A stretch of 49,385 nucleotides of DNA, taken from contig NZ_AOIL01000069.1 of assembly GCF_000337595.1 (NCBI RefSeq), positions 72,083 to 121,467 of the forward strand. Reading direction: 5' to 3'. The notes below the pieces were generated by a model, which had not been told where the DNA came from, ran no database searches, and was given only the letters and a program-made list of their open reading frames with translations. The position numbers and the translations under genes are program-made. Shown here in pieces: positions 8,456 to 26,690 of the stretch. Origin of the DNA: Natrialba taiwanensis DSM 12281 (GTDB taxonomy: Archaea > Halobacteriota > Halobacteria > Halobacteriales > Natrialbaceae). How positions within the stretch are numbered: position 1 is the first letter of the stretch; the number at the start of each line of letters is the position of its first letter.

Positions 8456-11400
8456 ATGGGCGATGCGGGCGCGTTCGACGATTTGCTTGCAGACGCCGAC
8501 GCGGATGTCGACGATCTCGACCTCGGGAGTCCGGCACCGTCGGAGCCATCTGCAACGGCAGATACGGGCGTAAATACGGGTGCAGACCCAGAGTCAGCCA
8601 ACGGGAGCACAGAAACCGACGCCTCCGACACCTCCGGCACCTCGACTACGGCGACCGAGACGGAACAGGCCTCTGCGACGGCTGCCCCCGACGAAAGCGA
8701 CGATGTCGACGACGCGGAGGCCGTCTTCGCAGAACTCAAAGACGAGGTCGACACCGTCGGCTTCGACGAACTCCAGGCGGAACTCGCTGAACTCGAGTTC
8801 GACGAGTTCGACCAGGAGGACGAGGTCAGCATGGACGAGCTTCTCGGCGATGCGGCCGACGCAGACGAGCCGTTCCTCGCCGGTGACTCCCTGGGCACGG
8901 ACGAAGTCGAGTCCGTGTCCGATGCTGAACTCGATGAGTTGGTGATCGCTGACGACGCGTCGGTATCTGCGGACGATGACAGTGGTGAGACGCTGGCATC
9001 CAATGCTACTGTCGGTGAGGAGTCTGCTGGTGCAGACGAGACAGCCGATGCGCAGGAACTCGAGACTGGTGCTGGTGGGGTCGCCGAGTCCGCATCTGCA
9101 TCTGGATCCGCATCCACATCCGAGTCTGCGGCCGAATGTGATGCCGAATCCGACTCCGAGACCGACGCTGCGGACGGACTGGTCGAATCGGTTGAGTCGG
9201 CCGAATCAACCGAGTCAACCGAGTCAACCGAATCTCTCGAGGAGGCGGCCGAATCGGTTGCTGACGATACGTTCGAGTTCGATTCAGAAACGTCTGTAGA
9301 GACGTCTGGTGCGGACGACACCGCACCCGAAACAGCGTCCGCGTTCGAGTTCGAGTCGGATGCCGAGTCTCCAGCGGCCACAACACAGGAGTCAGCGACG
9401 GCATCGGAGACGGCGGCTAAGACTGACACCGATCCGCTCAATGTTTCGGCGATTGATGAGGGTGAGACTACGGCGTGGTTCGACGAGACGGACGAGGCGG
9501 ACGAGACAGCCGAGACGGACGAAACGAACGAGACAATCGGGTCAGATGAGACGGCATCACCCGCCACTGACGACACCAGTGTCGCCGCTGACACTGCGTC
9601 CGCGGTCGATGCCGAATCAGCAGAGAGTACCCAGCAATCGGATGCTGATATCGAGCTGAACGCTGAGGGCGATACTGGAGAGTTCAGTGAAGCCGCTCGT
9701 GGCGACGAATTCGAATCCGACTCGACGCTGTCGACGCCGGCAGATGACTCGACTGATGAGGCTGTGGCAAGCGAGGAGGGCGAGGAGATCGAGTCGGAAG
9801 CTGAGCCAGCGGTGACCGAGACAGCTGATACAGACGGTACAGCCGACACAGTCGAGACAGCTGACACAACCGATACAGCCGACACAACCGAGACAACCGC
9901 TACAACTGGTTTCGACGCCGAAGACAGCGATGCCACGGCCTTGGACGAGTCGGAACCTGTCACCGAGGCGTCCGGGTTCGATTCGCCGTCGGGATCGACA
10001 GCCCCCGAGTTCGAACCCACGGACGCCGACTTCGACACCACCGATGTCGAGAGCAGCAGTGATGAGGAGGCCGATGGAGACAGCGCGTTCAGCGAAGTCG
10101 AGACCGCTTTCGATCCGGCAGTCACCGACGATGACATCGCGTTCGACGACATCGATCGAGCGGACGCCGCCGATGCCGAGGCGTTCACGAACGGCCTCAA
10201 TGCAGAAGTCGACGATTCGTCGACGGCGGAAACAGAAACGCCAGCCGAATCAGATCCCGGGAGTGACTCCGCAACGGACGACCTGGACGGATTCGGTGGC
10301 TTCGACGACGACGCGTTCGCGGATCTCGACGAAGAACTCGAGAACGAGCCACAGCCGTTCGAATCCGACTTCGATTCAGCCGCCGATGTCGGGACCGATT
10401 CCGGGTTCGAGACGATACCCGAATCGAGCGCAGACAGTTCGGACGGTGGCGCTGCATCCAGCGGAGAATCCTCCGCGACGGATCCGCCACGCATCGACGA
10501 ACCGGCCCTCGAGATCCCCGACATCACCGTCCCCGAAACGGTCGAACGGCCGGACACGGACCAGGAGACTGACGAAATCCAGTCCGTCCGGGTCGATGTC
10601 GAGCAGATCGACGAACTGCTCACGCTCGTCGAGGGGCTGGTGACGAGTCGCGTCAGGCTCCGCCACGAGGTCGAATCCGGCCAGTTCGGCCAGTCCGTCG
10701 CCGACGCCGGTGCGATCACCGACGAACTCGACGACCTCGAGGACCTGACGACGGACCTTCAGGAGACGGTAATGGACGTTCGACTCGTTCCGCTACGGAC
10801 GGTCGCGAACCGACTGCCGCGCGTCGTGCGCGACATCGCCCGCGACCAGGGCAAGACCGTCGCCTTCGAGATGAGCGGCGAGGACGTTGAACTCGACCGG
10901 AGCATTCTCGACCGGCTTCGAGATCCGTTGATCCACCTCGTCCGAAACGCGGTGGATCACGGGATCGAATCCCCCGAAGAGCGGGACGCCGCCGACAAAC
11001 CGGAAGAGGGGACTGTCGAGGTTTCGGCGTCTCGCTCGCGGGATCGAGTCGTAATCACGGTGTCGGACGACGGCAGTGGTCTCGACCCCGAGCGGCTTCG
11101 CTCTGAAGCGGTCGAAGAAGGCGTTCTCTCTGCGGATGACGCCGCTGCACTGGACGACGAGTCGGTTGCAGATCTCGTCTTCCACCCTGGCTTCTCGACG
11201 ACCGAAGAGGTCACGGATGTCAGTGGCCGCGGCGTCGGCATGGACGTCGTCAAGCGGACGATCGAGGACCTCGATGGGTCAGTTTCGATCGAGACCGAAC
11301 CGGAGGAGGGAACGACCGTAACGATGTCGGTTCCTGTGTCTATCGCGATCGACGACGTGCTATTCGTCGAAAGCGGCGGCGAAGAGTTCGGTATTCCGAC

Positions 11401-11998
11401 GAAGGCGGTTTCGGATATCGTTCCGTTCGAGCTGATCGAGGACGTCGATGGTGAGGCGGTCTTGCTGGATAGTGCTGGAAGTAGCGAGGCGGACCGTGGT
11501 GTCGGCGTCGGGGCCGGAGCTGAGGCTGTAGAGACCGACGGAGATGATGTTGGTAACGATGATGATAATGCGACAGCCACCGACGATGACGATACCGACG
11601 AGAGTACGCAGGAACGGGGAACGCCGGTAGTTCGACTCGACAAAGAACTCGGTGTAACCGACGAGCCGGCAGCCGGCTCGGAGACGGATACCAGTGCCAG
11701 CACCGAGACGAGTTCAGGTAGAGCGCCTGACACAGCCACGACCGAAGCACGGTTTGGGCTGGCTGCGACGGGCAGCCGAGACGACAGGCCGGGGCCGCGA
11801 AGTCCGGCACGCGGGATGGTCGTTCGGATCCGCGAAGATGTGCGACCGATCGCGCTTCGCTGTGACGCCGTTTACGGCCAGCAAGAAGTAGTTGTCAAGC
11901 CTTTCGAAGGGTTCATGGCAAATCTGCCGGGACTCAGCGGGGCAACGGTTCGCGGTCGCGGGAAGATTGTCAATATTCTAGATGTGACGACACTATGA
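8456..11998 (+). CDS. cheA: Chemotaxis histidine kinase CheA, linker and P3-P4-P5 part
   Basis: This frame is open from 8270; the ATG at 8456 is only its first ATG, and the natural protein probably begins at 7546. An acidic D/E/S/T/A linker of about 700 residues runs to about 10570. It is followed by P3 dimerisation (VRVDVEQIDELLTLVEGLV), the P4 kinase with N box (HLVRNAVDHGIE), G1 (SDDGSGL), F box (FHPGFST) and G2 (GRGVGMDVV), and a P5 CheW-like domain. P5 carries its own acidic insert at about 11470-11800 before MVVRIREDVRPI. CheA autophosphorylates and passes phosphate to CheY and CheB. The stop overlaps the start of a 29-codon ORF (ATGA). Confidence 0.9.
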   Translation: MGDAGAFDDLLADADADVDDLDLGSPAPSEPSATADTGVNTGADPESANGSTETDASDTSGTSTTATETEQASATAAPDESDDVDDAEAVFAELKDEVDTVGFDELQAELAELEFDEFDQEDEVSMDELLGDAADADEPFLAGDSLGTDEVESVSDAELDELVIADDASVSADDDSGETLASNATVGEESAGADETADAQELETGAGGVAESASASGSASTSESAAECDAESDSETDAADGLVESVESAESTESTESTESLEEAAESVADDTFEFDSETSVETSGADDTAPETASAFEFESDAESPAATTQESATASETAAKTDTDPLNVSAIDEGETTAWFDETDEADETAETDETNETIGSDETASPATDDTSVAADTASAVDAESAESTQQSDADIELNAEGDTGEFSEAARGDEFESDSTLSTPADDSTDEAVASEEGEEIESEAEPAVTETADTDGTADTVETADTTDTADTTETTATTGFDAEDSDATALDESEPVTEASGFDSPSGSTAPEFEPTDADFDTTDVESSSDEEADGDSAFSEVETAFDPAVTDDDIAFDDIDRADAADAEAFTNGLNAEVDDSSTAETETPAESDPGSDSATDDLDGFGGFDDDAFADLDEELENEPQPFESDFDSAADVGTDSGFETIPESSADSSDGGAASSGESSATDPPRIDEPALEIPDITVPETVERPDTDQETDEIQSVRVDVEQIDELLTLVEGLVTSRVRLRHEVESGQFGQSVADAGAITDELDDLEDLTTDLQETVMDVRLVPLRTVANRLPRVVRDIARDQGKTVAFEMSGEDVELDRSILDRLRDPLIHLVRNAVDHGIESPEERDAADKPEEGTVEVSASRSRDRVVITVSDDGSGLDPERLRSEAVEEGVLSADDAAALDDESVADLVFHPGFSTTEEVTDVSGRGVGMDVVKRTIEDLDGSVSIETEPEEGTTVTMSVPVSIAIDDVLFVESGGEEFGIPTKAVSDIVPFELIEDVDGEAVLLDSAGSSEADRGVGVGAGAEAVETDGDDVGNDDDNATATDDDDTDESTQERGTPVVRLDKELGVTDEPAAGSETDTSASTETSSGRAPDTATTEARFGLAATGSRDDRPGPRSPARGMVVRIREDVRPIALRCDAVYGQQEVVVKPFEGFMANLPGLSGATVRGRGKIVNILDVTTL

Positions 11999-12084
11999 AC
12001 GGAACGGTATCGAAATCGAGACACGGAGAACCGGTTGCCGTTGCAGACGCAGACACTGACGCATATCGACGGAGGAATTCATGA
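11995..12084 (+). CDS. 29-residue minicistron between cheA and cheC
   Basis: ATG at 11995 shares ATGA with the cheA stop, and its own TGA at 12082 shares ATGA with the cheC start at 12081. The peptide (MNGTVSKSRHGEP... ending DAYRRRNS) has no recognisable domain. It fills the gap between cheA and cheC exactly, so it may couple their translation or be a small protein. It contains GGAGG (12071-12075), a strong Shine-Dalgarno sequence 5 nt before the cheC ATG. It could also be chance. Confidence 0.4.
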   Translation: MNGTVSKSRHGEPVAVADADTDAYRRRNS

Positions 12085-12686
12085 CGCTGATGGTCGACAT
12101 TCGGAAACTGAGTTTCATTAACGAAATGGCAAAGGTCGGGACGAACGGCGTCGCCGACAACATGACCAAACTAACCGGGGAGGACGCCCAGATGGAGGTG
12201 ATGAAGACGAACTTTATCGATGTCGACGACATCGATTCGCAACTCGAACCCGGCAAACGGGTCGGGGTGCGCGTTCGCCTTCTCAACCCGCCACACGGGC
12301 ACATTCTTATCCTGTTCCCGGAGGAGAGCGCGAAGAAGATCACGGCGATCATGCTCAACGATGTCGTCGATGATATGTCCGATGTCTCCGGAAAAATGGC
12401 CAGAAGCGCCGTCGAGGAGATGGGGAACATGATGGCGAGTGGCTTCATCGACGGCTGGGCCGACGTGATGGGGCGGATGATCGATACCGCGGCACCACAG
12501 CTCGTCTACGCCCCTGGCGAAGAAATCGTCACCCGGACAGCCGGGCTTGGAAACGACGATCTCGCCCTGTTCTTCGACTCGGACCTGACGGTGCCGAGCT
12601 ACCAGATCGAGGCCGAGATCTACGCGTTCCCGGACCTAGAAGAGTTCGTCGAACTGGTCAACGGCATCGACGTTCAAACCGCATGA
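12081..12686 (+). CDS. cheC: CheC-family CheY-P phosphatase/adaptation protein
   Basis: A 201-residue CheC. The signature phosphatase helix is SAVEEMGNMMASGFIDGWADV (about residues 113-133), with the E..N pair used by CheC/CheX/FliY proteins to dephosphorylate CheY-P. The N-terminal region (MVDIRKLSFINEMAKVGTNG) is also typical. CheC binds CheD and links CheY-P level to receptor modification. An upstream GGAGG at 12071-12075 supports this start. It overlaps the next gene by 4 nt. Confidence 0.92.
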   Translation: MTLMVDIRKLSFINEMAKVGTNGVADNMTKLTGEDAQMEVMKTNFIDVDDIDSQLEPGKRVGVRVRLLNPPHGHILILFPEESAKKITAIMLNDVVDDMSDVSGKMARSAVEEMGNMMASGFIDGWADVMGRMIDTAAPQLVYAPGEEIVTRTAGLGNDDLALFFDSDLTVPSYQIEAEIYAFPDLEEFVELVNGIDVQTA

Positions 12687-14011
12687 AACTCGACGTCAAC
12701 GCACTCGGGACGTTCTACCGAATGGCTCGAGAGGGGGCCGGCCTGGCAGCGGGGCGGTTGACACACATGACTGACGTCGAGACGCGGGCTGGCGTGACGA
12801 AACTCAACTTCATGCGCGGCCGGGAGATCCGGCGCGACTTCGAGGATTCGACATCGAAAGTCGGCGTTCGGGTCGAACTCACCGGGGCGATCGAGGGCTA
12901 CTCGGTCATCGTCTTCGAGCGCGAGAACGCCCTGCGGATCGTCGAGAGTTTACTCGAGGAGTCAGCTACGGATTCCGATCTGTCGGATGAGGCCGGTGAA
13001 CTCGACGAGTTCAACGAGATGACCCGCAGCGCTGCGACGGAGGTTGGAAACATCATGAACAACGGGTTCATCGACGGCTGGGCCGACGTGCTCGAAACCG
13101 TTATCGATGTCTCGACGCCGGAGTTCGTCGAGGGACGGTCAGCGGATACCTTCTTCGACGAGGTCGAGAAGGCACCTGCGGGCGACGACCTCGCGTTGCT
13201 CTTTCAGAGTCAGATCGAGACGGTCGAGACCCAGGTCGGGTTCAGCCACTATCTGTTTCCCGAGCGCGAGTCGATGGCGGCGTTGCTCGATCGGCTCCGG
13301 ACCAGCGGCGGTATCGAGTACGACAAACTCGACGGCTTCGACCGGATGGCCGAACGCGGTGCCGAAGAAGTTGCCAAGACGGCGACGACGCTGACCGGCA
13401 TCGATACGAGCGTCGAGATTCGCCGGCTCAATTTCGTTTCCTTGGAGACGATTCCCGAGCAGGTGCCCGACGAGCGACTCGTCGGCGTCGCCTTCGAGTT
13501 CGACGGCGTGCCAAGTGGCTACCTCTTATTCCTGTTCGACGAGGAATCCGCGAACGAAATCGTCGACGCCATGGTGCCGACGGGTGCTGGTGACACGGAG
13601 GAGACGGACGGCTTCGGCCAGATGGGCCAGAGCGCAATCCAGGAACTGGGCAACATCATGGCGAGCGGGTTTCTCGACGGCTGGGCGAACGTGCTCGATA
13701 CGACGATCGACCACTCGACGCCCGAGTTCATCCACGATATCGGGGCTGCGGCCGTCGATCCCGTCGTGATCCAACTCGGCGAGGACCAGGAGTTTGCGTT
13801 CGTCTTCGATACCGTTATCGTGGCCGCCGGACGCGAATTCGACTGTGAAGTCTATGCGATTCCGGACGAGTCTGACCTCGAACGGGCGCTAAACGATCTC
13901 GACGTGGATCGGATCGAAGAGGAACCGACGACGGCCGAATTCCAGAACGTTACCGGTACTGGCACTGACGGTGGCGCTGGTACTGGCACGGATACCGATA
14001 CCGACACATGA
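12683..14011 (+). CDS. cheC: Tandem double CheC protein
   Basis: A 442-residue protein made of two CheC modules. Module 1 (about 1-205) has SAATEVGNIMNNGFIDGWADV and module 2 (about 210-410) has SAIQELGNIMASGFLDGWANV; both keep the E..N phosphatase pair. Each module repeats the N-terminal pattern (FYRMAREGAGLAAGRLT; FDRMAERGAEEVAKTAT). The C-terminus is a Gly/Thr/Asp tail (GTGTDGGAGTGTDTDTDT) encoded by hexanucleotide repeats at about 13955-14005. The 4-nt overlaps with cheC before and cheD after indicate coupled expression. It resembles a gene duplication followed by fusion. Confidence 0.9.
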   Translation: MKLDVNALGTFYRMAREGAGLAAGRLTHMTDVETRAGVTKLNFMRGREIRRDFEDSTSKVGVRVELTGAIEGYSVIVFERENALRIVESLLEESATDSDLSDEAGELDEFNEMTRSAATEVGNIMNNGFIDGWADVLETVIDVSTPEFVEGRSADTFFDEVEKAPAGDDLALLFQSQIETVETQVGFSHYLFPERESMAALLDRLRTSGGIEYDKLDGFDRMAERGAEEVAKTATTLTGIDTSVEIRRLNFVSLETIPEQVPDERLVGVAFEFDGVPSGYLLFLFDEESANEIVDAMVPTGAGDTEETDGFGQMGQSAIQELGNIMASGFLDGWANVLDTTIDHSTPEFIHDIGAAAVDPVVIQLGEDQEFAFVFDTVIVAAGREFDCEVYAIPDESDLERALNDLDVDRIEEEPTTAEFQNVTGTGTDGGAGTGTDTDTDT

Positions 14012-14529
14012 AGACCTACGGCACAGAACCGGGCGCGCCGACGTCGGTTCAGGTCGGAATATCCGAACTGACCGTCAGCGACGGCGACGATACACTCAAA
14101 TCCTACGGGCTCGGGTCGTGCGTGGCGATCGCACTGTACGACCCGGAAACGGAGATCGGCGGCCTCGCCCACACCATGTTACCCGACGGCGACGAGGCCG
14201 AAAACAGCGACCGCAAACCCGGAAAGTACGCAGATACCGCTATCCGGGCCCTTTTGCGGCGCATGGTCGAACGCGGCGCAAGCTACACCACCGTCGAGGC
14301 GAAACTCGCCGGCGGCAGCGACATGTTCGAGTTCGATAGCTTCGGTGACGGCGTCGGCAAGCGCAATATCGACGCCGCCAAAGCTGAACTCGAGAAGTTA
14401 GGCGTCCCGCTCGTCGCGTCGGATCTCGGCGGCGACCGCGGCCGAACCGTCGAGTTCACACCTGAAACGGGAACCCTGCTCGTAAAAAGTTCCGACGAGA
14501 ACGGCGATCAGGGTGTGACGGAACTATGA
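14008..14529 (+). CDS. cheD: Chemoreceptor glutamine deamidase CheD
   Basis: A 173-residue CheD. It deamidates glutamines on chemoreceptors and binds CheC. The active-site region is intact: KSYGLGSCVAIALYD with catalytic C38, then GGLAHTMLP with H55, the Cys-His spacing of 17 expected for the family. S32 sits where I recall a threonine in the characterised Thermotoga enzyme. KLAGGSDMFEF and the GKRNI segment are also family marks. It overlaps the double cheC gene and cheR by 4 nt each. Confidence 0.95.
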   Translation: MKTYGTEPGAPTSVQVGISELTVSDGDDTLKSYGLGSCVAIALYDPETEIGGLAHTMLPDGDEAENSDRKPGKYADTAIRALLRRMVERGASYTTVEAKLAGGSDMFEFDSFGDGVGKRNIDAAKAELEKLGVPLVASDLGGDRGRTVEFTPETGTLLVKSSDENGDQGVTEL

Positions 14530-15611
14530 GCGGTGATACCGACGTCGACCCCGATGACATCCGTGGCGATCCCGAGCAATTCGCCGACCTGATCGGCTAC
14601 ATCGAGGACGAACTCGCGTTCGCGACGAGTCACTACAACGACAGCTATCTCGACCGACGGGTCGCTTCGCGGATGCGCCGAACGCGCAGCGATACGTATC
14701 TCGAGTACCTCGAGACGCTGCGCACCGACCCGGACGAGCGGGAGGCGCTGCTCGGGGCGTTGAGCATCAACGTAACCGGCTTTTTCAGGAACCCCGAGGT
14801 CTGGGACGGAATCCGGAAGATCCTTCGCCACTACAGCGCCGTGGGAGATGACGAACCGATCCGAATCTGGAGTGCCGCCTGTGCAGACGGCCGCGAACCG
14901 TACTCGCTATCGTTGCTCGCACACGTCGATCCGGCGATCGATGCTGAGCGGGTCGAGATTCTCGGAACGGACATCAGTGTCCCCGCACTGGAGACGGCCC
15001 GGACGGGCATCTACGAGGAACCACGCACCGTCGATCTGGGTGACCAACTGTCGTTTCTCGACGACTACGGGCCCTCCGATCAGTACATCCAGCAACGCGA
15101 CCGCACCTACCGAGTCGATGAGACGATTCGCCGCTCCGTCTCGTTCGAACGACACGACCTAATCAACGACGCTCCCAAATCCGGATTCGAACTCGTCGTC
15201 TGCCGAAACCTGTTTATCTACATCGACAACGCCTACAAACGGCCGATGTTGGAGACGATCTCCCGATCGCTCATGCCGGGCGGCTATCTGGTGATCGGGA
15301 AAGCAGAGACGATTCCACCGACGCTCAAATCCGCCTTCGAGGTCCGTGATGCCCGCCTTCGGATCTACCAGCGGGGCGATGCTCAACAGACTCGCCAGCA
15401 ACCGACCCAGACACGATCGGCCGGAAACGAGGGTGACACCGATACGGCTGGTGACGCGGCTCTGGCGACGAACACAGATTCCGCAGCCGACAGCAAGGCA
15501 GACACCACCGATGACGCCGACGATGCCGACGATGCCGACGGCGACACCGATTCTGACTCCGAAATGGACACCGAGACCGCTGTCGTCGAGTCAACAGGCA
15601 GCTCAGAGTAA
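14526..15611 (+). CDS. cheR: Chemotaxis protein methyltransferase CheR
   Basis: A 361-residue SAM-dependent methyltransferase that methylates receptor glutamates. The N-terminal helical domain has DRRVASRMRRTRSDTYLEYLE; NVTGFFRNPEVW and the SAM motif IRIWSAACADGREPYSL follow, then LVVCRNLFIYID and GGYLVIGKAETIP. After about residue 283 comes an acidic D/T/A tail with a DADDADDADGDTDSDSE-type repeat, absent from usual CheR proteins of about 270 residues. It is the last gene of the overlapping che series. Confidence 0.94.
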   Translation: MSGDTDVDPDDIRGDPEQFADLIGYIEDELAFATSHYNDSYLDRRVASRMRRTRSDTYLEYLETLRTDPDEREALLGALSINVTGFFRNPEVWDGIRKILRHYSAVGDDEPIRIWSAACADGREPYSLSLLAHVDPAIDAERVEILGTDISVPALETARTGIYEEPRTVDLGDQLSFLDDYGPSDQYIQQRDRTYRVDETIRRSVSFERHDLINDAPKSGFELVVCRNLFIYIDNAYKRPMLETISRSLMPGGYLVIGKAETIPPTLKSAFEVRDARLRIYQRGDAQQTRQQPTQTRSAGNEGDTDTAGDAALATNTDSAADSKADTTDDADDADDADGDTDSDSEMDTETAVVESTGSSE

Positions 15612-15709: not shown

Positions 15710-16975
15710 ATGACTGGCGCTGCGCTTCAGTCGTTCATCGCTCGATCACAGTCCGTGATCGACTCCTCGCCGCCAGCCGACTGCCCCTCGACACGCGTCT
15801 GGCTCGTCGATCCACTCCTCGAAACGCTCGGCTGGAACGTCCACGCAGACTCGTGTACGACCGATACGACCATCGACGGCACGCCACTCGAGTACGTCCT
15901 CGAAATCGAAGGCGTCCCCGCCCTCCTCGTCGCCGTCGAACCAGCCGCGGCCACACTCGACCAATCCCGTGCCGCCTCCCTCCTCGAAACGATGACCTGG
16001 AGCGGTATCGACCGCGCTCTCTACACGAACGGCCACGAGTTCATCTGGCTTGCCGACGGTACTGGAACCACTGGCACCGGTACCGGCACCGACACCGACA
16101 CTGTCACCGTCGGTGTCGACCATCTCGTCTGTGATCTCACCTCGCTCGCCGACCACGCCACCTCGGTCGATCACTTCACCCGATCGACCATCGCCCAGCA
16201 ACTCGACCCCAGCGCCCGCGCTACAGTAGCCCGGAAACTTGCCCTCGAGCGCCGGACAGTCGTCGACGCCATCGTCGCTGAACTCGTTTCGACAACGCGG
16301 TCGGAAGGCGACAGGGCTGACGAACTCGAGGCGTTGACGGAGCGATTCGTCGAACAACTCATCGTGGTGTTTGCGGACGACGACAGCCATGTAGCGACAG
16401 CCAGCGAGGACTCGGCCGAAATATCGTTTCAGTTTACCGACTCGTCAACGACTGACTCGTCAACAACCGACGGGGAGACACCAGGAACGAGGGCAGGGAC
16501 AGCGACGCCGGATGTGCAAGGCTCGTCGGACACTAATAGTGACACCGATCGCCCGACGGAGACAACGGAGTCGGAGACCGAAGCGATCGATACCGAAACT
16601 GAATCCGGAACCGAGACGGAAACCGAAACGACCGACGGCAACGGCAGCTATGTCGTCCGCTTTTTCAATGACCGCGGTTCGATCGGCGCGATCGGCCATT
16701 CGAGTTCACGCCAGGCGCTCGTTCAGGCGGCGGAGTACCTCTTCGAACGCGGACTGAGTGGTGTCGCCGTGCCGTGGCAGCCGCCGGATGGCGAGCGGAC
16801 GGTCCTGAACGGTAAACCGATCGTCGCCGATGGGTCTCCGATGGAGTCGCCACAGCAACTCTCGAACGGACTGTATCTCGAGACGGCGGGCACTGCTGAC
16901 GAGCACGCTGCTCGCGTCGAGTCCCTTACGGCACGGGCCGGCTTGCGAGCGATGCTGACGGAAGCGTGGGGGTAG
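15710..16975 (+). CDS. Uncharacterised protein with HsdR-N-like (PD-(D/E)XK) fold, catalytically degenerate
   Basis: A 421-residue protein. Residues 28-110 resemble the type I restriction HsdR N-terminal domain: VWLVDPLLETLGWNV, then TPLEYVLEIEGVPALLVAVEP. In active enzymes this region reads D-Y-V-L ... E-x-K; here the first acid is E61 and the second motif is E77-P-A, so the catalytic lysine is missing. A Thr/Gly/Asp repeat interrupts it (about 118-130), an acidic linker spans about 245-308, and a C-terminal domain (YVVRFFNDRGSIGAIGHSS, ALVQAAEYLFERG) completes it. It sits 98 nt after cheR and converges on the pilus operon. Function is unknown; nucleic-acid or scaffold binding is possible. 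Confidence 0.65.
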   Translation: MTGAALQSFIARSQSVIDSSPPADCPSTRVWLVDPLLETLGWNVHADSCTTDTTIDGTPLEYVLEIEGVPALLVAVEPAAATLDQSRAASLLETMTWSGIDRALYTNGHEFIWLADGTGTTGTGTGTDTDTVTVGVDHLVCDLTSLADHATSVDHFTRSTIAQQLDPSARATVARKLALERRTVVDAIVAELVSTTRSEGDRADELEALTERFVEQLIVVFADDDSHVATASEDSAEISFQFTDSSTTDSSTTDGETPGTRAGTATPDVQGSSDTNSDTDRPTETTESETEAIDTETESGTETETETTDGNGSYVVRFFNDRGSIGAIGHSSSRQALVQAAEYLFERGLSGVAVPWQPPDGERTVLNGKPIVADGSPMESPQQLSNGLYLETAGTADEHAARVESLTARAGLRAMLTEAWG

Positions 16976-16990
16976 ATGCAGTATCTCAGA

Positions 16991-17767
16991 TCAGTACTCG
17001 ATCGTCGCTTCCACAACCATCACGAGCACTTCATCGACATTGTCACACGTCCCGCTGTTCCAGCCATTGCGATCGAGAACGCCCTCTTCCCAGGCTCGGT
17101 CGGCTGACGACTCCTCCACGGTGATCGAGACCGTACTCGAATCGTCGATAGTCTCGACGGTCCGATCAGTGGGAGTCAGCGTGAACTGCAGTCCATCACT
17201 GCTCTGGATCGACCGCTCGGTCGCATTGAGCGCCACCAGCGAGATTACTGCGCGATCGCGTTCTGGCGAACACATCACCTGCGGCTGTCTTACGACCGCA
17301 CTGCCGGTCTCGCCCTCTCGAACGACGGCACCGCCATCGTAGGCGATCGTCTCCGAGCCGGCCTCGTATCTGAACTCGCCGAGCGTAACGGTCTCCGTAT
17401 CAGGATCATAGAACTCGCTATCGTAGCGGTTTTTGATCGGAGTTCCATCGACGGAAATATTCAGTTCGGTTCCGCCGCTTCCGGTTGTCACTGTCCCCTC
17501 TCGTAACGAGAGTTCACTATCGCGTTCTTCGATCCCGCTGTACTGCAGTACGTCGTTGAAGTTCTCCGCGAGGGCGTCCATCGCCCGCTCGGCGTTTCGC
17601 AACTGTTCGTTCTCCTGATAGTCTTCCATCGCCTGGAAGCCGGTCACCGAGAGGAGCGCGACTGACGAGAGGATGATCCCAAAGACGAGGATAAACGCGA
17701 CGACTTCGGAAATCGCGCGCTCGTCGGTGTGGAACGAACGCGGCGGGTTTGGATCGTGCCTGCTCAT
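16991..17767 (-). CDS. Pilin-like secreted protein (class III signal; perhaps DUF7289)
   Basis: A 258-residue protein starting MSRHDPNPPRSFHTDERAISEVV; the longer frame to 17950 overlaps the neighbouring gene and was rejected. Residues 17-40 (RAISEVVAFILVFGIILSSVALL) form the charged-then-hydrophobic N-terminus of archaeal type IV pilin-like proteins, with a potential prepilin-peptidase site after RA. The extracellular part is Ser/Thr/Asp/Asn-rich and beta-like, with two cysteines in each of two places. It overlaps the upstream gene by 4 nt and is the last gene of the pil operon. The family name is from memory. Confidence 0.8.
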   Translation of the reverse strand: MSRHDPNPPRSFHTDERAISEVVAFILVFGIILSSVALLSVTGFQAMEDYQENEQLRNAERAMDALAENFNDVLQYSGIEERDSELSLREGTVTTGSGGTELNISVDGTPIKNRYDSEFYDPDTETVTLGEFRYEAGSETIAYDGGAVVREGETGSAVVRQPQVMCSPERDRAVISLVALNATERSIQSSDGLQFTLTPTDRTVETIDDSSTVSITVEESSADRAWEEGVLDRNGWNSGTCDNVDEVLVMVVEATIEY

Positions 17768-18240
17768 CGGTTCCCACCGTCGATCGTAAGGGAGTCCCCA
17801 TCGGCGCTGATCTCGATCGTTCCACCCGGTGCTGAACTCTCGTCGATATCTAATTCGGTGACGACAACGGGAACGTAAACGACAGTATCGGCTCCGTTCG
17901 ACGTGAGTTTGACACAGTCCGTTTCGCCGTCGAGAAGCGGTGCCTCGCACTTTTCGGCTATCTCGACGGTGTATCCGGAGTTCGCGACCGTTCGTGGGTG
18001 GGGCGCTCTAATCGTCACGGTATCGTCGCCAAGCCGGTCGACACTCTCGATTTCACCGGCAATTCGCTCACCGATCGTCTCTAACGAGTGCTCTGCAGAC
18101 CGATCCGTCTCCGTATCGAGCAACCCGCCAGCACTGGTGAGCAAGAGCGCGATCAAAATCGTCGTGATCCCGATCGTCAACACGTGCGTAACCGCGATCG
18201 ACATCGCTCGATCGGCATCGTTGTGCTCTCGGCTCAGCAT
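17764..18240 (-). CDS. Pilin-like secreted protein (perhaps DUF7266)
   Basis: A 158-residue protein starting MLSREHNDADRAMSIAV, with ATG at 18240 overlapping the stop of the gene before it (TGATG); a GTG at 18243 is an alternative. Residues 12-34 (RAMSIAVTHVLTIGITTILIALL) form a class III signal-like charged/hydrophobic N-terminus. The outside domain is short and acidic (ESVDRLGDDTVTIRAPHPRTV) with one cysteine pair (EKCEAPLLDGETDC). It is part of the conserved set of small exported proteins next to pilB/pilC; each may be a minor pilin or pilus assembly component (inference). Confidence 0.8.
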   Translation of the reverse strand: MLSREHNDADRAMSIAVTHVLTIGITTILIALLLTSAGGLLDTETDRSAEHSLETIGERIAGEIESVDRLGDDTVTIRAPHPRTVANSGYTVEIAEKCEAPLLDGETDCVKLTSNGADTVVYVPVVVTELDIDESSAPGGTIEISADGDSLTIDGGNR

Positions 18241-19118
18241 CACGTGTCACCGCCGTAGATCGGCACATCATCGGTTTGCTGGAACGTGATGGAGTTCGAT
18301 TCGTAGATCACTCTTGTGTCTACCTTCCACGCGCCCTCCGTGGTCCGTGTAGATAGCGCATCATCATGTCCACCGCTCCGATTCGTTACAAGTTCGTAGG
18401 TCCCGTCAACGCCGTTGAGGTCGATCGTTATATCCTCATATGACTCCGACGGATCGAAGAGTTCTGGAACTCGCTGATGTGGGGTTCCATTTACCGTTCC
18501 CGCTACGAGATCGACGCGGGCTGTGCCCGTTGAGACCGACTCACCATCGACGTTGATCTGACTGCCATCAACTTCGAACGTTGTTTCAGAGGTCGAGTTA
18601 TTGATGACAAGCGTCCCGTCATTGCTCGTATTGAGACGAAGAGTGAAGTGACCGACCTGCGATGTATCGCGACTCGCATCTGAAATATTACTATCTGTTA
18701 GCCCATCAAAATCACTGACGTTTCCAACAGCGCTTGTTGCTGACGTATTTCTGTCGATATATTCGACGGTAGTGATCGTCGGCGTATTATTTGTTGTTAC
18801 CTTTCGGAATAGATTATTGTATTCACCGATATCGAGATTATCATCATCAAGATCCTTTCCAGCGATATTCGACCGGTGAACGATCCCGGCAACACCCGTC
18901 TCGAGTTCGTGTTGGGTCACCTCGACATCGGCAGCGCTCTGGCTGGTTGAACTCGAGGAAATGGTTTCGGTGTAGAGAACGCCGTTGAAGACGACGACGA
19001 TACCGAGGATGATGAACGCGAGTGCGATAGCGCCGATGAGAATGATCTGACCGCGGTTATATGATTGAGCATAGTCGTCGCGATGTGCACTCTCGTGAGA
19101 AAGTTCATCTGCTACCAT
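18240..19118 (-). CDS. Pilin-like secreted protein (perhaps DUF7261), AT-richer gene
   Basis: A 292-residue protein with a clear class III-like signal: SYNRGQIILIGAIALAFIILGIVVV (about 19-43), with a cleavage-type R-G followed by Q and a long hydrophobic helix. The external domain is Asn/Ser/Thr-rich, with many N-x-S/T sequons (NNSTS, NTS, NRS), suggesting N-glycosylation. The DNA from about 18580 to 18860 is visibly AT-richer than its neighbours, with TTA, ATA and ATT codons, unlike most of the window. This could reflect transfer, recombination or diversifying change in a surface protein. Its 3' end overlaps the next gene and its 5' end overlaps the previous one. Confidence 0.82.
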   Translation of the reverse strand: MVADELSHESAHRDDYAQSYNRGQIILIGAIALAFIILGIVVVFNGVLYTETISSSSTSQSAADVEVTQHELETGVAGIVHRSNIAGKDLDDDNLDIGEYNNLFRKVTTNNTPTITTVEYIDRNTSATSAVGNVSDFDGLTDSNISDASRDTSQVGHFTLRLNTSNDGTLVINNSTSETTFEVDGSQINVDGESVSTGTARVDLVAGTVNGTPHQRVPELFDPSESYEDITIDLNGVDGTYELVTNRSGGHDDALSTRTTEGAWKVDTRVIYESNSITFQQTDDVPIYGGDT

Positions 19119-19759
19119 ACAATCAAACGAACCTCCACAACATTGTATATCGGATCTTCAACTCCCTTCGCAGGGGGAATCGTCTGATTGGCGTCGTCGT
19201 AGTCCTCGATCTGTTTTCCGTCCGGTTTGATATACTGATCATTGTAAAGCGTTACAGTATAGCTCGCTGTAATCGCGTCTGCCGACGGACTGCCCTGATA
19301 GACAGCCGTTTTGTGTGTCATGTCGTTCCCTTTATCCAGATAGTGGAACTCGAGGTTGTAGTTCCAGCCCTGGGCTGCGAATCGTTGGTTCAGGATCAGG
19401 CCCAGGACGGAAGCGTTCTCCAGATCGTTCTGCGTGAACGTCTCATACTCGTGGTCCTCACCGGGTGCAACGGACCCGTTTGTACCTGCGAAGCCGCCGT
19501 CTTCGTCCCAGTGGCGGAGCAACGCTGATACATTCTCGTCGTGGTCGGCGACGACGAGTGCATCCTGTGCTTCCTGTTGGACCTGCGACTGGACCGATCG
19601 GTCGGCCAGTCCACCGGATGATGGCGTGATGACCACCGACTGGAGCGCAAAGAGGACGGCCAGCAGCACGACCATCGCGCCGATGAACCCCTCGAGCGTG
19701 TAGGCCTGACCGCGATCGGTGTGAGTGGAGTCCGTGGGTAGTGACTGTCGGCTACTCAT
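19112..19759 (-). CDS. Pilin-like secreted protein (perhaps DUF7288)
   Basis: A 215-residue protein. The N-terminus is DSTHTDRGQAYTLEGFIGAMVVLLAVLFAL, a polar leader ending in R-G followed by Q-A-Y-T-L-E and a hydrophobic helix, the layout of archaeal prepilin-like signals. The external part includes HDENVSALLRHWDEDGGF and ends VVEVRLIVW. It overlaps the next gene by 7 nt and follows the previous one by 4 nt, so it belongs to the pilB-pilC transcription unit. The family assignment is from memory. Confidence 0.82.
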   Translation of the reverse strand: MSSRQSLPTDSTHTDRGQAYTLEGFIGAMVVLLAVLFALQSVVITPSSGGLADRSVQSQVQQEAQDALVVADHDENVSALLRHWDEDGGFAGTNGSVAPGEDHEYETFTQNDLENASVLGLILNQRFAAQGWNYNLEFHYLDKGNDMTHKTAVYQGSPSADAITASYTVTLYNDQYIKPDGKQIEDYDDANQTIPPAKGVEDPIYNVVEVRLIVW

Positions 19760-19763
19760 ACGA

Positions 19764-20396
19764 TCACCACGTCCTCACGACGAGTCTGCACGCTGGCTCA
19801 CAGTCACCGTCGTCGAGGATTCCCTCTTCATCGGCCACCGTAACGATTCTCGCAGTACTTGCTGCTGACTGATTGTTGTACGTCTCTCCGGCAGCCAGTG
19901 CCGTCGGGTCAACGAACTGCTCGTCGGGTGGTCCATCGGTGAGCGTCTCAACGCTTACGTTTACCCGGTCGAAAGCCACCGTTTCACCCCCGTTCTCACT
20001 CGCACGCAATCCGAGTTCAGTTCGCAACTCCGCGGCCGAGTGTCCTGTATAGCGCGCTTCGAACTCGCTGGCATTGATCTCGTTTGGCCGGTCACTATCG
20101 GAGAGGTTCGTGACAACCTGGTCTGCGATTCGGTCGGCCTGTGCGATCTCCGCACCGCCGGCCGACGAATCGAACGGCGTGATCAGCGAGGGAAGAAACG
20201 AGAACACGAACGCCATCGCCAGAATGAAGATTCCGATCCCGACCACGAAGTCCTGCGTGGTCTGTCCACGCTGTCCGCGGGTTAGAGACCGGCGTTCGAT
20301 TCCGGTTTCGGTTCCTGTTTCGGTTCCGATTCCGATCCTAGTTCGCGTTCTCGTTTCCGTCTCGACCGAACTCGTTTCTGTCCATTTCCCGTACAT
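19764..20396 (-). CDS. Pilin-like secreted protein (perhaps DUF7287) with repeat-encoded leader
   Basis: A 210-residue protein whose core starts RGQRGQTTQDFVVGIGIFILAMAFVFSFL, a class III-like signal with R-G before Q. Ahead of it lies an unusual leader of about 40 residues (VETETRTRTR, IGIGTETGTETGIE) encoded by degenerate hexanucleotide repeats at 20300-20364. The first ATG at 20396 is 1 nt after the pilC stop, which supports it as the start, but no in-frame ATG lies between the repeat and the signal, so a non-ATG start cannot be excluded. The external domain ends CEPACRLVVRTW, with a cysteine pair. Confidence 0.8.
   Translation of the reverse strand: MYGKWTETSSVETETRTRTRIGIGTETGTETGIERRSLTRGQRGQTTQDFVVGIGIFILAMAFVFSFLPSLITPFDSSAGGAEIAQADRIADQVVTNLSDSDRPNEINASEFEARYTGHSAAELRTELGLRASENGGETVAFDRVNVSVETLTDGPPDEQFVDPTALAAGETYNNQSAASTARIVTVADEEGILDDGDCEPACRLVVRTW
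20300..20364. repeat. Degenerate hexanucleotide repeat in a pilin-like gene
   Basis: On the plus strand, units of the type ggttTC/ggttCC/ gatTCC recur about every 6 bases. Read on the minus strand they encode alternating Thr-Glu, Thr-Arg and Gly-Ile/Gly-Thr dipeptides ahead of the membrane signal. Length changes by slippage would keep the frame. Confidence 0.7.
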
Positions 20397-20397
20397 G

Positions 20398-22452
20398 TCA
20401 GGCCACCATCGTCCAGCCGAGAAGGGCGATTGTCGCCAGGATGATCGCGTATTTGAGCCCGCTCAGTACGTCTGCATCACGGATATAGCCACAGATGAAT
20501 CCGGAGATGATTCCCTGCAGCGTCACCGCGTGGAAAAACAGCGCCGACAGCATATCGATCTGGATATTGTCACTCAGGTCGGCCTGTGCGAGTTCGCTGT
20601 TGGCCTCGCCGGCACCGCCGCTGTTGGTTTCGAGACCGGCCATCGTATCGATGAACTGCGTCTTGAGGATCGCGATGACGGCGAGGACAGTCAGGAACGT
20701 CATGACGATGATGACGACCTGCATCCGGGTGCGGGACTTGCGCTCGCGTTCGATGTCGTCGTGATTCTCGCTCGCGCTTGCGGCCGTCCGGAGCACGTCC
20801 GTAATCTGGTTCGAGGCCTCCTGTGCCTCCGTAATGAGCCGGGTCGTCCGGGCGAGTCGCGGAATGTGGTACTTGTTGTTGAACTCGATGAGCGCCGACT
20901 TCAGACTCGTCCCGTAGTTGACCTTCGTGTGCATGAGTTCGAACTCGCGGGCGAGTTTGCCACTCGTCGTGTCGGCGACGGACTTGAATGATTCGAGGAG
21001 TGTGAGTCCGGTGTCGTTTGCACTCGAGAGTTTCCGCAGGTCTTCCGAGAGCGTGTTGACGACGGTATTTCGGTGGCGGACGTTCCACTCGCGGAAGATC
21101 GAGAGCGGGATTGCAACGATATAGAACGGAATGTATACGTAGATGACGGTTCCCCAGATGACGTTATCGAGCAGGGCGCTCCACGAGAGTGGTGCGGAAC
21201 CGGTCATCATCGCTGTCGTCACGACGACAAGCGCGAGTGGGATAGTAAGTGCGACCGTGTACAGGGGGTTGTCCCTGAAGAAGATGTGCGGTCGCTTTAC
21301 GACCTCGATCGTTTCGTGGGTTCCCTCGCGGTTCTTGATCCGATCGAAGACGCTGTGCTCGCCGGTGAACTGTTCGACGAGGCCGAGATTGAGCAGTCCC
21401 TGTTCCGCCTTGCTCTCGACGTATCTGTTGCCGGTCGCATTTGAGAGGTAGCCGTCGCCGGGCTCGTCGTGTTTGACCGTCGAGACCAGTATGAGGAAGC
21501 CAATCCCGGTAAGCGGAATCAGGCCGTAGACGGTCATATACAGCATATTGTTGGTGACATCCGCCTGTGGAATCATCTGCATCACGACCATGATAATGAT
21601 GAGCAAGAGCGGAAACAGCGACAGCGTCATGTACATCTCCCCGAAGAGTTCGAGCGTCTCGAGGGTGAGTTCCTGTTCCTGCTTGGCCGTGCGCATGTGC
21701 TTTTCTTTCTTGTCTTCGAGGAAGCTCTCCATGTCACCGCCGCTGTTGACGATCGAGAGCATGTCTGTCAGAAACTGCGAGAGTTCATCACTCGGCGTTT
21801 CGATCGCTTGGGTGCGGATTGCAGTCCGGTAGTCGACGTCGAAGTACTCGGTTTCCTTGACGATGCTCTGGAACTCCTTTGCGACCTCGCCGTAGGTGTC
21901 GTCGGCCTGGGCCATCGCGTCGATGATCTCGAGTTGGTTTAGCCCGCCAACCGACAGTGCGTACATAAACGAGACGGAGTCGGTCAGCAACATGTTGATC
22001 TCGCGCTTCCGTGCCGACGCGCGCGAGTACGGGATCGCAGTGAGCGAGCCAAAGCCGAGTACAAAGCCGATCGTCCCGAATATGATTCCGGTGATGAAGA
22101 CGAGCGCCGGCACTCGAAGCGCCTCGATAATCGCGAGTAGCGTATCGTTCCCGACGGGGAACCCGATGATGGTATCGACGGCGATCAGCCCGGTCGCAAA
22201 GAGCGTATACCCGAGTGTGAGACCAATCAGCCACAGTGCGAGGCCGCTGATGAACCCGATGCCGAGCGCACGAGAGAGATAGAGTTCAACCGTGTCGGTC
22301 ATCCGGGCCTGGGCGAGTTTCGTCTCGACGTCGGCGACGAACTCGCTGTCCTCGCCGAAGAGGCGACTATACAGCGGGAAGAACGTTTCACCGAGGATAT
22401 CGGATCCACCGGTGACACTTCCGGAGTCGCCCGTGTCGGTTTGCAGGCTCAT
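20398..22452 (-). CDS. pilC: Type IV pilus inner-membrane platform protein PilC (TadC/FlaJ family)
   Basis: A 684-residue polytopic membrane protein of the type II secretion F superfamily, with two GspF-like domains. Cytoplasmic helical parts (SVSFMYALSVGGLNQLEII; ANDTGLTLLESFKSVADT) alternate with membrane helices (LALWLIGLTLGYTLFATGLI, LSLFPLLLIIIMVVMQMI, VVIIVMTFLTVLAVIAIL, YAIILATIALLGW). It anchors the pilus and works with the PilB ATPase. Its start overlaps the pilB stop (ATGA), so the pair is translationally coupled. The archaellum homologue ArlJ is usually nearer 550-600 residues, and the pilin-like genes downstream favour a pilus rather than an archaellum. Confidence 0.92.
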   Translation of the reverse strand: MSLQTDTGDSGSVTGGSDILGETFFPLYSRLFGEDSEFVADVETKLAQARMTDTVELYLSRALGIGFISGLALWLIGLTLGYTLFATGLIAVDTIIGFPVGNDTLLAIIEALRVPALVFITGIIFGTIGFVLGFGSLTAIPYSRASARKREINMLLTDSVSFMYALSVGGLNQLEIIDAMAQADDTYGEVAKEFQSIVKETEYFDVDYRTAIRTQAIETPSDELSQFLTDMLSIVNSGGDMESFLEDKKEKHMRTAKQEQELTLETLELFGEMYMTLSLFPLLLIIIMVVMQMIPQADVTNNMLYMTVYGLIPLTGIGFLILVSTVKHDEPGDGYLSNATGNRYVESKAEQGLLNLGLVEQFTGEHSVFDRIKNREGTHETIEVVKRPHIFFRDNPLYTVALTIPLALVVVTTAMMTGSAPLSWSALLDNVIWGTVIYVYIPFYIVAIPLSIFREWNVRHRNTVVNTLSEDLRKLSSANDTGLTLLESFKSVADTTSGKLAREFELMHTKVNYGTSLKSALIEFNNKYHIPRLARTTRLITEAQEASNQITDVLRTAASASENHDDIERERKSRTRMQVVIIVMTFLTVLAVIAILKTQFIDTMAGLETNSGGAGEANSELAQADLSDNIQIDMLSALFFHAVTLQGIISGFICGYIRDADVLSGLKYAIILATIALLGWTMVA

Positions 22453-25400
22453 TCGTCGCCCGCCTCGTCTTCGTCGGTTTGGCTGGCGGGTTCAGTCGGG
22501 GTCTCGTCGTCCGTACCGGCACTCGTCTCGTCCTCGGCTGCGAAAATACTCGAGTCGGATTCATTCGTTCGTTCTACATCAAACATCGACCCGCCGCCGG
22601 AATCGGCGCGACTCTCGTCCTCGGCGTCGCTAAAGACCGACTCCGATTGCTTGCCGAAGATCGAGTTCGATGTGTCGCCAGTCTCGTTCGCGTTCGGATC
22701 AGCAGTTCGGTCACTCGTCTCTACGGCCTTCTCCCTCTCCCTCTCCCTATCACTATCCGTATCTGTATCGGTGTCCATGTCCGCACCCGTGTCAGCGGAT
22801 GATTCGATCGTCGCCTCGTCGAACGTCACCACGTCGCCTGTGTCACCTGCGTCGTCCGTTTGATCGTCCTCCGTCCCGTTAGCAGGGATCGAAGACGGCG
22901 ATGACGGATCTGGATCGGGGTCGGACTCAGATTCTGATTCAGGGTCCTCAGCCGCCTCGTGCTCGTGTTCATGCTTGTCTGGCCAGTCCTGATCTGACGC
23001 CGAATCGGGCGACCCCGTCGAAACCTCCGTCGTCGGTCCGGGCCCTCGCTCTTCGACCGGTGTTCCAGAGCCGAGTTCGATCGACGGAACGGCGCTTTCG
23101 GGAATCGTCGGCTGCCCCGATTCTGTCGCCTCGTCGGCAGCAGTCGAGTCAGCGGCTGTTTTGTCGGCCTCCGCAGATGCTGACCCTGATCCTGACCCTG
23201 ACTGCGCGTTCGGCTCCGTTACCGACTCGTCGGTAGTCCGGCGGTCGCCCTCGGCACCATTCGGATCGGCCGACCCGCTCGACGCAGATGACGTCTCGCT
23301 CGGCGATTGTGACGATGCCTCGTTGGTTTCGCCACCTGCCGAGTCGTCCATCGAATCCGGATCTGGACCCGAACCTGGATCCGGATCGAACACGTCATCG
23401 AACTCGTCGCCGGCAAACACCTCATCCGAGGCGGTTGTATCGACGGTCCGGTCCGCTGACTCCGCACCCGCAGTAGCCGATTCGAGTTCATCGAGCGTCT
23501 CGCCCATGTCGTCGAAGAGACCGCCCAGATCACCGTCGGCATCGTCGGACGGGAAGACGGTAACGTCGCTTGTCTCTCCGGAACCGGACGCTGTTGCTCC
23601 GGCAGTCCCATCGCTCCAGGCCGGCGCTTCGCCCGCAGCGAACTCGTCCGCCGTCTCCAGGCTGTCTATCTCGGGGGATGTCGAGTTCGCAGACGCGGGT
23701 TCAGTCGTCGTGTCGGTTCCGGTGCCGGTCTCAGTTCCGGGGCTGACACCGGAATCGGCCGCTCCGGTGTCCGCACTAGAACCGTCACCGGCACCCGCAC
23801 TGGCACCACTGCCAGCGGTCGTCTCAGCAGTCGTCGCCTCGATACCAAACCCGCTGCTGTCCGTCTCTGCGAACCAGTCCGGCTCGTCGTCGTCGTCCTC
23901 ACCGACCGGCATCGTCGCCGCCGTCTCCGCAAAGTCAGTCGCCCCATCGCCGAACGTCCACTCCTCTGCGATGCCGTCCTCGATACCGCTCTCGAAGTCG
24001 AACTCGTCGTCCGTTCCGTCGACTTCGATCGGGTCTTCGTCGGCAACTTCTCCCAGTGCGCTCGCGAGGCCGCTTGGCACCTTCCCGCGATAGTCTTCGA
24101 ACAGCGACTCCTCGGCTCGCTCGAGGAGGTCCATAGAGAGGTTGTACGTTTCGGAGGTCGAATCCGGACGCGGAACGAGTTCTTCTTTCTCCCGGTCGAC
24201 GTCGATCAGGACGCTTTCCATCTCCCGGAGGTCGTCGAGGCTCTCCTCGAGTTGACCGTTCGCGATGAGTGTAAGAATTGTGTCAGGATCGTTGATGAAC
24301 GCCTGGACCGTCGCGGCGACCTCGGCGTAGGTGTTGAGACCGTTCTTGATGAGGTAGGCGAGGATGACCTCGCGTTTGAACAGTTCTTCCTCGAGTTTCT
24401 CCGTGCTCCAGCCGCGGTCGAACTGGATCTCCTCTAAGGTGTTCGAGTCCCCCATCTTGAGGAACTCGTCCGTTTCGGCCTGCCACTGATAGACGTCCTG
24501 AACGTTGATCTCGTCGTGTTCGGCCTCGTAGTGGTTGATCTCCGTGAGCGACTTGTTCCGGCGAACCTTCCGGCCCTGGACCCGGGTCTGGGTCTGGATC
24601 GATACCAGATCCAGCGCGGTGAACATCGTCTTCGAGACGTTGATCGGGTCCGTCGTGAATCGTTTGAGCACCTCGTCAACGGAGTCCGCGTGGAACGTGG
24701 TGTAAGTCGTGTGGCCCGTCGACATGACCTGGAACAGCGTCCGTCCCTCCTCACCGCGGATCTCGCCCATCACGATGTAGTCAGGCCGTTGGCGGAGGGC
24801 GGCTTCGAGCAGATCGAACTCGTCGACGTCGCCCTGCTCGTCGTCGGCGAACGAGGGGCGAGTGACGCTTGCAATCCAGTTACGCTGTGGCAGTTCGACC
24901 TCGCGTGTGTCCTCGATCGAGACGATCTTTGCGCTGCTCGGGATGAACAGCGAGACCGCGTTGAGGGAGGTCGTCTTCCCGGATGCGGTACCCCCAGCGA
25001 AGATCAGGCTCTTGTGGTTCTCGATCGCGAGCCAGAGGAACGCCATCTCGTCTAAGCTGAAGGTGTTCCAGTTGATGAGGTCGATCGGGGTAAACGGCAC
25101 GTCCTTGAACTGACGAATGGTGTAGTTCGTCCCGTGGTCGGACACCTCCTGTCCGAGCGTCAGTTGCGCACGCGAGCCGTCCGGCAGCGTCGCGTCGACC
25201 TGCGGCAGTCGCTTGCTGATCCCCTTGCCCGACCGCTGGGCGAGTTTGACGACGAAGTCGTCGAGTTCATCTTTGCCGTGGTAGATGTTCGAGATGATCT
25301 GTTCGTACTCGGAGTGATAGACGAAGACGGGCGAGTTGTAGCCGTCGACGGAGATGTCCTCGACGTTGATGTCGTGTTTGATTCCGTCGATGCGCTCGTA

Positions 25401-26666: not shown

Positions 26667-26690
26667 TGCACCTACCCTCTCAGTCACCCT

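Follow-up and report, generated by a model that had tools for sequence, protein, structure and literature searches.

The locus considered here raises the question of what a protein resembling a restriction nuclease is doing between a chemosensory operon and a type IV pilus operon. The window (the whole stretch of DNA that was analysed, 49,385 nucleotides from Natrialba taiwanensis DSM 12281) carries an open reading frame with an ATG start that encodes this protein, referred to below as X (Table 1). The nearest named loci are those of two Natrialba species, N. aegyptia and N. asiatica, whose best segments are 88% and 89% identical, respectively. The original prediction placed X between cheR and the pil operon, with no methylase or specificity subunit nearby. 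Both statements agree with the map: cheR lies upstream, the pil operon is convergent, and none of the 37 other open reading frames of the window matches the restriction-modification models of PADLOC at E values up to 1e-10. A sigma-70 type scan, which is unsuited to archaea, found no promoter at the start of the X gene. It should be added that cheA of the window appears to be split over two frames (7417-8361 and 8456-11998, plus strand), by either a frameshift of the strain or an assembly error; at three loci of the same genus (L062, L063 and L064) cheA is a single open reading frame of 1375-1437 aa.

Table 1. Features of X and of the neighbouring genes, in window coordinates.
Feature	Position	Strand	Basis or remark
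X, 421 aa, two domains	15710..16975	+	predicted dead HsdR-N-like nuclease fold plus SeqA-like domain
X, predicted N-terminal PD-(D/E)XK-fold domain with helical extension, residues 1-222	15710..16375	+	AlphaFold2 model; VIA match to DrdV 7lo5/7lvv, Z 10.6
X, putative former active site: E61 (D position), A75 (E position), E77 (K position)	15890..15940	+	alignment with 19 intact relatives; counts in 67 orthologues
X, low-complexity T/D/E-rich linker, residues 223-309, predicted disordered	16376..16636	+	pLDDT <50 at 224-309
X, predicted C-terminal SeqA-like domain, residues 310-420	16637..16969	+	model pLDDT 95; top four VIA rows are SeqA, Z 7.2-7.7
cheW-like	4903..5796	+	PF01584
cheY (response regulator)	5899..6261	+	PF00072
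cheB	6258..7553	+	PF01339, PF00072
cheA, main part; 5' part in another frame	8456..11998	+	PF02518, PF01584, PF02895
cheC	12081..12686	+	PF04509
two-domain cheC/X	12683..14011	+	PF04509 and PF13690, two stretches each
cheD	14008..14529	+	PF03975
cheR, directly 5' of X, 98-base gap	14526..15611	+	PF01739
DUF7289 pilin-like gene, convergent with X; probably begins further downstream than the listed ORF	16991..17950	-	PF23960
pilin-like gene, DUF7266	17764..18243	-	PF23928
DUF7261-like gene	18240..19118	-	PF23922, 23.2 bits, below the Pfam cut-off
DUF7288 and DUF7287, two genes	19112..20396	-	PF23959, PF23958
pilC (T2SSF)	20398..22452	-	PF00482
pilB, PilB3-like ATPase	22449..26687	-	PF00437, PF23989, PF23990

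The assignment of the N-terminal domain comes from structural models. Sequence searches of X against Pfam, NCBIfam, PADLOC and the PDB returned nothing useful, and profile searches of the PDB gave noise only; X of the window falls under the gathering cut-off of HSDR_N_2 (PF13588) and matches no Pfam family, while an early-branching X (L094) reaches 22.9 bits against the cut-off of 25. The AlphaFold2 model, built on a 20-row alignment, has a mean pLDDT of 72.5, with block means of 71-92 across residues 1-120. Its N-terminal domain matches the nuclease domain of DrdV (VIA Z 10.6; 133 residues, 3.5 A) and a Vibrio HsdR (Z 9.2); mitoribosomal matches at Z of about 7-8 ranked under these rows and were set aside. 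Foldseek alone gave no match at E <0.001 for the model of either domain. Structural residues P35, L40, G41, W42, Y62, P70, V74, T106, N107 and G108 are kept in at least 85% of X sequences. Structure prediction and fold search therefore returned a PD-(D/E)XK fold and not an unrelated one, and the models suggest that the HsdR-N-like fold proposed at the outset has been retained.

The active site can be followed residue by residue in comparison with relatives that carry HSDR_N_2, which were found by profile search in 392 genomes of the same order. Of eight relatives scanned, the six that have an intact motif match PF13588 at 1e-9 to 1e-13. The typical motif is VDYAL...PVVFVEAK in intact relatives (19 loci, none of which has lost D, E, K, Q or Y of the motif), as against LEYVL...PALFVAVE in X. 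Thus, by alignment, the catalytic D corresponds to E61, the E to A75 and the K to E77. The first reading of the sequence had taken E77-P78-A79 for the remnant of E-x-K, and this detail proved wrong, as E77 stands at the position of the lysine, A75 at that of the glutamate and E61 at that of the aspartate. The claim itself, that the fold is dead, has fared well: E-x-K is retained in none of the 67 distinct X orthologues. Position 77 is K in none of the 67 and E or D in 51, the only basic residue there being a single R; position 61 is E or D in 64, and position 75 is acidic in nine. The QxxxY motif is lost as well, with Q at 90 in 2/67 and Y at 94 in 0/67. On these residues X is predicted to be a catalytically dead descendant of a nuclease.

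The C-terminal domain, modelled alone (46 rows), reached a pLDDT of 95. The top four PDB rows in the VIA comparison are all SeqA (Z 7.7, 7.4, 7.4 and 7.2; 94-100 of 112 residues), followed by a fifth row at Z 4.4. Since a Z below 8 on a predicted model is in itself no proof, the sequences were compared. A first profile comparison with a single SeqA sequence was weak. When 20 intact C-domains were made into a profile and compared with six SeqA sequences (one broken SeqA fragment, L174, was left out), the score was 28.7, with E 5.5e-4, and the match is in register over the loop T149-N150-T151-N152; the highest score among 150 column shuffles was 19.9, and reversed SeqA scored 10.6. A profile of X sequences only gave no sequence support for SeqA (E 0.53), and the C-domain of an intact relative produced nothing but noise against the PDB. 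SeqA binds hemimethylated GATC. Its contact residues, as listed in PMC6225831, are R116, T117, R118, N150 and N152. The position of N152 is occupied in the intact rows by N (9), S (8), G (2) and A (1; n=20) and in the X rows by D (16), T (10), S (7), P (2) and E (1; n=36). Asparagine is thus found at this position in none of the 36 X C-domains, and it is absent among the residues listed for the N150 position; in general, the reader-loop residues and the loop lysine are mostly lost. X looks like a descendant of a nuclease and DNA-reader protein that has lost both signatures, that of cutting and that of reading.

The relatives indicate where X came from. In a tree built without the catalytic columns and without the near-copy L062, a single branch, supported at 100/100, separates the 40 X rows from the 19 intact ones. 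In a tree rooted on intact two-domain relatives outside the order, with catalytic columns kept and several long branches, X forms one clade (100/100) nested within the intact haloarchaeal nucleases (86/82). A single origin of X, and a single loss of the active site, is thus well supported. Three loci (L088, L089 and L095) score nearer an intact relative as single sequences; motif and trees place them in X, and they are counted among the 50 X loci below. The intact relatives sit at scattered loci: when 70 neighbouring proteins from 18 loci were screened against Pfam, the 25 most matched families contained none of the che or pil kind; they did contain two type IIG-like methylases, phage integrases, TFIIB and ribosomal L3. 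At one such locus (L111) homologues of pilB and pilC lie nearby. Intact E-x-K orthologues at random loci had been named beforehand as a finding that would count against a repurposed module; such relatives do exist, but they form a clade separate from X. Loci L102-L120, L153 and L159-L167 represent a family of HsdR-N-type nucleases that stand alone in archaea and in many cases carry a SeqA-like C-domain. Of the 19 loci L102-L120, eight have a second type of C-terminal domain, marked by the motif VAVFPTKESGLPFLKENEAWGFVRVG. By their domains, the intact relatives resemble proteins that combine a nuclease with a DNA reader, and they may possibly be modification-dependent restriction enzymes.

X is a real, conserved gene under purifying selection. 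Orthologues are present in 110 of the 125 genomes of the same family, after six weak matches out of 116 (G021, G086, G088, G090, G091 and G092) had been discarded; the 110 include the broken or truncated copies of G054, G035, G036 and G124. Against two relatives of the same genus, the window copy has dN/dS of 0.33 and 0.37 over the whole gene and of 0.19 and 0.17 over the C-domain. The gene is therefore maintained by selection, a recent pseudogene is rejected, and the second, conserved-looking C-terminal domain noted in the original prediction is indeed highly conserved. X evolves faster, under less strict selection, than cheD, cheC/X or pilC. In G054 (C1:2742332-2743152) X, adjoining cheR, appears broken, with two short frames and one TAG. 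In L032 (at 8697; N. asiatica contig NZ_AOIO01000030.1) and also in L003, the frame is split by a 19-base insert near an N, which we take to be the Nextera mosaic end; this split is an assembly artefact in the public record, and both loci were left out of the locus counts below, yet counted as X genomes.

Regions of about 17 kb that surround X genes or related loci, hand-picked from the matches and thus not a random sample, show that X is a fixed companion of the chemosensory operon cheW-Y-B-A-C-C-D-R. A guessed region without X (L121) and a truncated one without X (L138) were dropped before counting. Directly upstream of X in 50 loci are cheR (20), a divergent chemoreceptor gene (PF00015 with HAMP; 24), a pilin-like VWA/DUF7289 gene (2) or nothing recognised (4); downstream are a convergent pil operon (34), a glutathione S-transferase-like gene (14) or neither (2). 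The expectation that orthologues always sit beside che or pil genes thus stands in part: cheR or a chemoreceptor gene is upstream in 44 of 50, but the pil operon adjoins in only 34, and six loci have no adjoining che gene. Four X loci of family f7 lie beside the GST gene only and two beside a pilin-like gene only; the genomes of these six have CheR elsewhere. The GST-like gene, found 3' of X for example at L082, L088, L089, L092, L094, L096-L098 and L100, is often followed by a large VWA and DUF7289 surface protein. No published description of the X gene was recognised in the literature search, whose sources were available in part; the accessible portions of the account of the Nab. magadii cheYBACCDR operon (PMC3403918), and of PMC3579733 and PMC1913061, do not mention it.

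The presence of X across genomes follows CheR. Of the 125 family genomes, 109 have both, one has X only (G124, 53% complete), six have CheR only (G018-G022 and G115) and nine have neither (Fisher p 3e-9, not corrected for phylogeny). Genus g19 has both genes in three genomes and neither in six, a contrast that may rest on few events. The PilC homologue of this operon, on the other hand, is kept in all 18 genomes tested, including the nine without X and CheR. A pilus-specific partner role is thereby rejected, and the weight that the original prediction gave to the pilus as the context of X was misplaced, since X follows CheR rather than the pil operon and is absent together with CheR while PilC stays. 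Over the 392 genomes of the order, 99 have X and CheR, none has X without CheR, 200 have CheR without X and 93 have neither; with X called at E <1e-35 and four candidates scored per genome, absences of X in this count are weak. Genus g9 (G018-G022; L122-L124) seems to be losing its che cluster at the pil operon and no longer has X, while the archaellum and CheF remain. In G022 (L124) the pil operon comes straight after cheD-cheR, the slot of X is empty and no cheA was found within the 18.6 kb fetched; in G019 a cheR fragment with an in-frame stop lies about 3 kb from pilC.

What the cluster controls is suggested by the distribution of the archaellum. CheF is the adaptor that links the Che proteins to the archaellum. 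CheR is found in 115, CheF in 33 and ArlJ in 79 of the 125 family genomes. Among the 109 genomes with X and CheR, CheF is absent in 81 and ArlJ in 39, absence of ArlJ meaning no match or no more than a weak PilC cross-match; without the eight genomes less than 90% complete, the figures are 79/104 and 37/104. X does not follow ArlJ, which is absent in 39 of 110 genomes with X and 4 of 15 without it, and an archaellum-specific partner role is rejected on this ground. Ten loci from ArlJ-less genomes were read: eight have a run from cheA to cheR beside X and the pil operon, and the other two (L085 and L086) have a chemoreceptor gene there. In the genome of the window, a different contig (C49) carries a group made up of ArlJ, two CheF genes and a second CheR. 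This layout matches that described for Nab. magadii (PMC3403918), where a che-only cheYBACCDR operon is separate from the che-fla locus. In Haloferax volcanii, che genes were connected with adhesion through a transposon screen (PMC5198076). Makarova et al. 2016 (PMC4858521) state that evidence for control of other archaeal type IV pili by chemotaxis is lacking. With most X-bearing clusters lacking CheF and over a third of them lacking an archaellum, these clusters probably have an output other than swimming, at least in the 39 genomes without ArlJ, and the type IV pilus beside them is the most likely one.

We propose the following course of events. The ancestor of X would have been a stand-alone archaeal HsdR-N-type PD-(D/E)XK nuclease with a SeqA-like DNA-reading domain, as alignment, model and tree suggest. 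The X lineage has lost the metal-binding acid, the catalytic lysine, QxxxY and the SeqA-type reader residues, keeping those of the fold, and X then became fixed beside the chemosensory operon, with a chemoreceptor gene or cheR as its neighbour, to which Natrialbaceae add a PilB3-type pilus operon. The Che pathway containing X would drive an output other than swimming, for which the adjacent pilus is the likeliest candidate, and X would act by binding and not by cutting, as a cytoplasmic adaptor between the Che pathway and its output or receptors. That X is a domesticated dead nuclease serving as a non-cutting adaptor or scaffold of a chemosensory pathway is, in our opinion, about an even chance. 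A narrower version, in which X takes the place of CheF and passes the Che signal to PilB3/PilC in archaellum-less species as output adaptor of a pilus chemosensory pathway, appears rather unlikely.

The alternative we take most seriously, and still regard as doubtful, is that X is a DNA-binding transcription regulator, whose operator would lie within the che-pil region or in the gap that separates X from the divergent chemoreceptor gene. Both domains have predicted DNA-binding folds, the divergent arrangement occurs in 24 of 50 loci, and X carries less acidic charge than its intact relatives in the helical part of the N-domain (-0.069 vs -0.127 per residue); however, the reader-loop residues and the loop lysine are mostly lost, and over the whole N-domain basic residues are no more frequent than in intact relatives (0.102 vs 0.100). 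The comparison of net charge between X and intact relatives does not separate DNA binding from protein binding. A related idea, that X is a dead enzyme of a type IV-like kind which still reads DNA methylation and ties the expression of chemosensory genes to replication or methylation state, would fit the resemblance of the C-domain to SeqA, but it seems improbable to us given that none of the 36 X C-domains counted has N at either the N150 or the N152 position.

Two further readings appear more improbable still. BamHI has E-x-E, and X might be a nuclease with a rearranged active site in which, for example, E61 and E77 are metal ligands. The frequency of acids at these positions (64/67 and 51/67) would agree with this; the rarity of an acid at 75 (9/67), the lack of a basic residue at 77 except one R, the lack of an acid set common to all X and the loss of QxxxY speak against it. 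Equally far-fetched is a neutral or decaying remnant hitchhiking in a stable neighbourhood. The faster evolution of X compared with cheD, cheC/X or pilC and the seemingly broken copy in G054 point that way, but a C-domain dN/dS of 0.17-0.19, the presence of X in 110/125 family genomes and its joint absence with CheR where PilC stays do not.

Our verdict is that X, read as a non-cutting binding protein of the Che pathway, is the mark of a chemosensory cluster that is independent of the archaellum and adjoins a pilus operon. It supplies a marker gene for possible chemosensory control of pili in archaea. With a cluster or a chemoreceptor gene set against a PilB3-type operon in 34 of 50 loci, and with X and CheR in 39 ArlJ-less genomes, such control becomes directly testable. 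X is also a clear case of a restriction-like enzyme that would have been domesticated through loss of its cutting and reading residues, and its intact relatives are available for side-by-side comparison.

Comparison with known systems places X as follows. With the HsdR N-terminal and type IIG nuclease domains (PF13588; DrdV; EcoR124I HsdR) it shares the predicted fold and the structural signature residues P35, LGW, P70 and TNG, but not the catalytic D/E/K or QxxxY. Unlike type I restriction enzymes, it has no motor (421 aa, no Pfam domain), nor were methylase or specificity genes found among the 37 window ORFs. Its nearest relatives are the intact haloarchaeal stand-alone HSDR_N_2 nucleases (L102-L120, L153, L159-L161 and L167), and an X-type C-domain is also present in 10 of the 19 intact loci L102-L120; these nucleases have an intact active site and scattered loci, whereas X has neither. 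The DNA-binding domain of SeqA may share the fold predicted for the X C-domain (Z 7.2-7.7, below 8, on the model), but the GATC-contact residues are not conserved in X, which has a domain of predicted PD-(D/E)XK fold in place of the N-terminal oligomerisation domain of SeqA. Like CheF (PF04283), X is proposed to be an accessory protein of the archaeal Che pathway; unlike it in sequence (no Pfam match), X mostly occurs where CheF does not. A functional parallel may be the Pil-Chp system of Pseudomonas, which exerts chemosensory control of type IV pili. There, as proposed here from gene context, chemosensory genes serve a type IV pilus, with the difference that Pil-Chp is bacterial and the X cluster archaeal.
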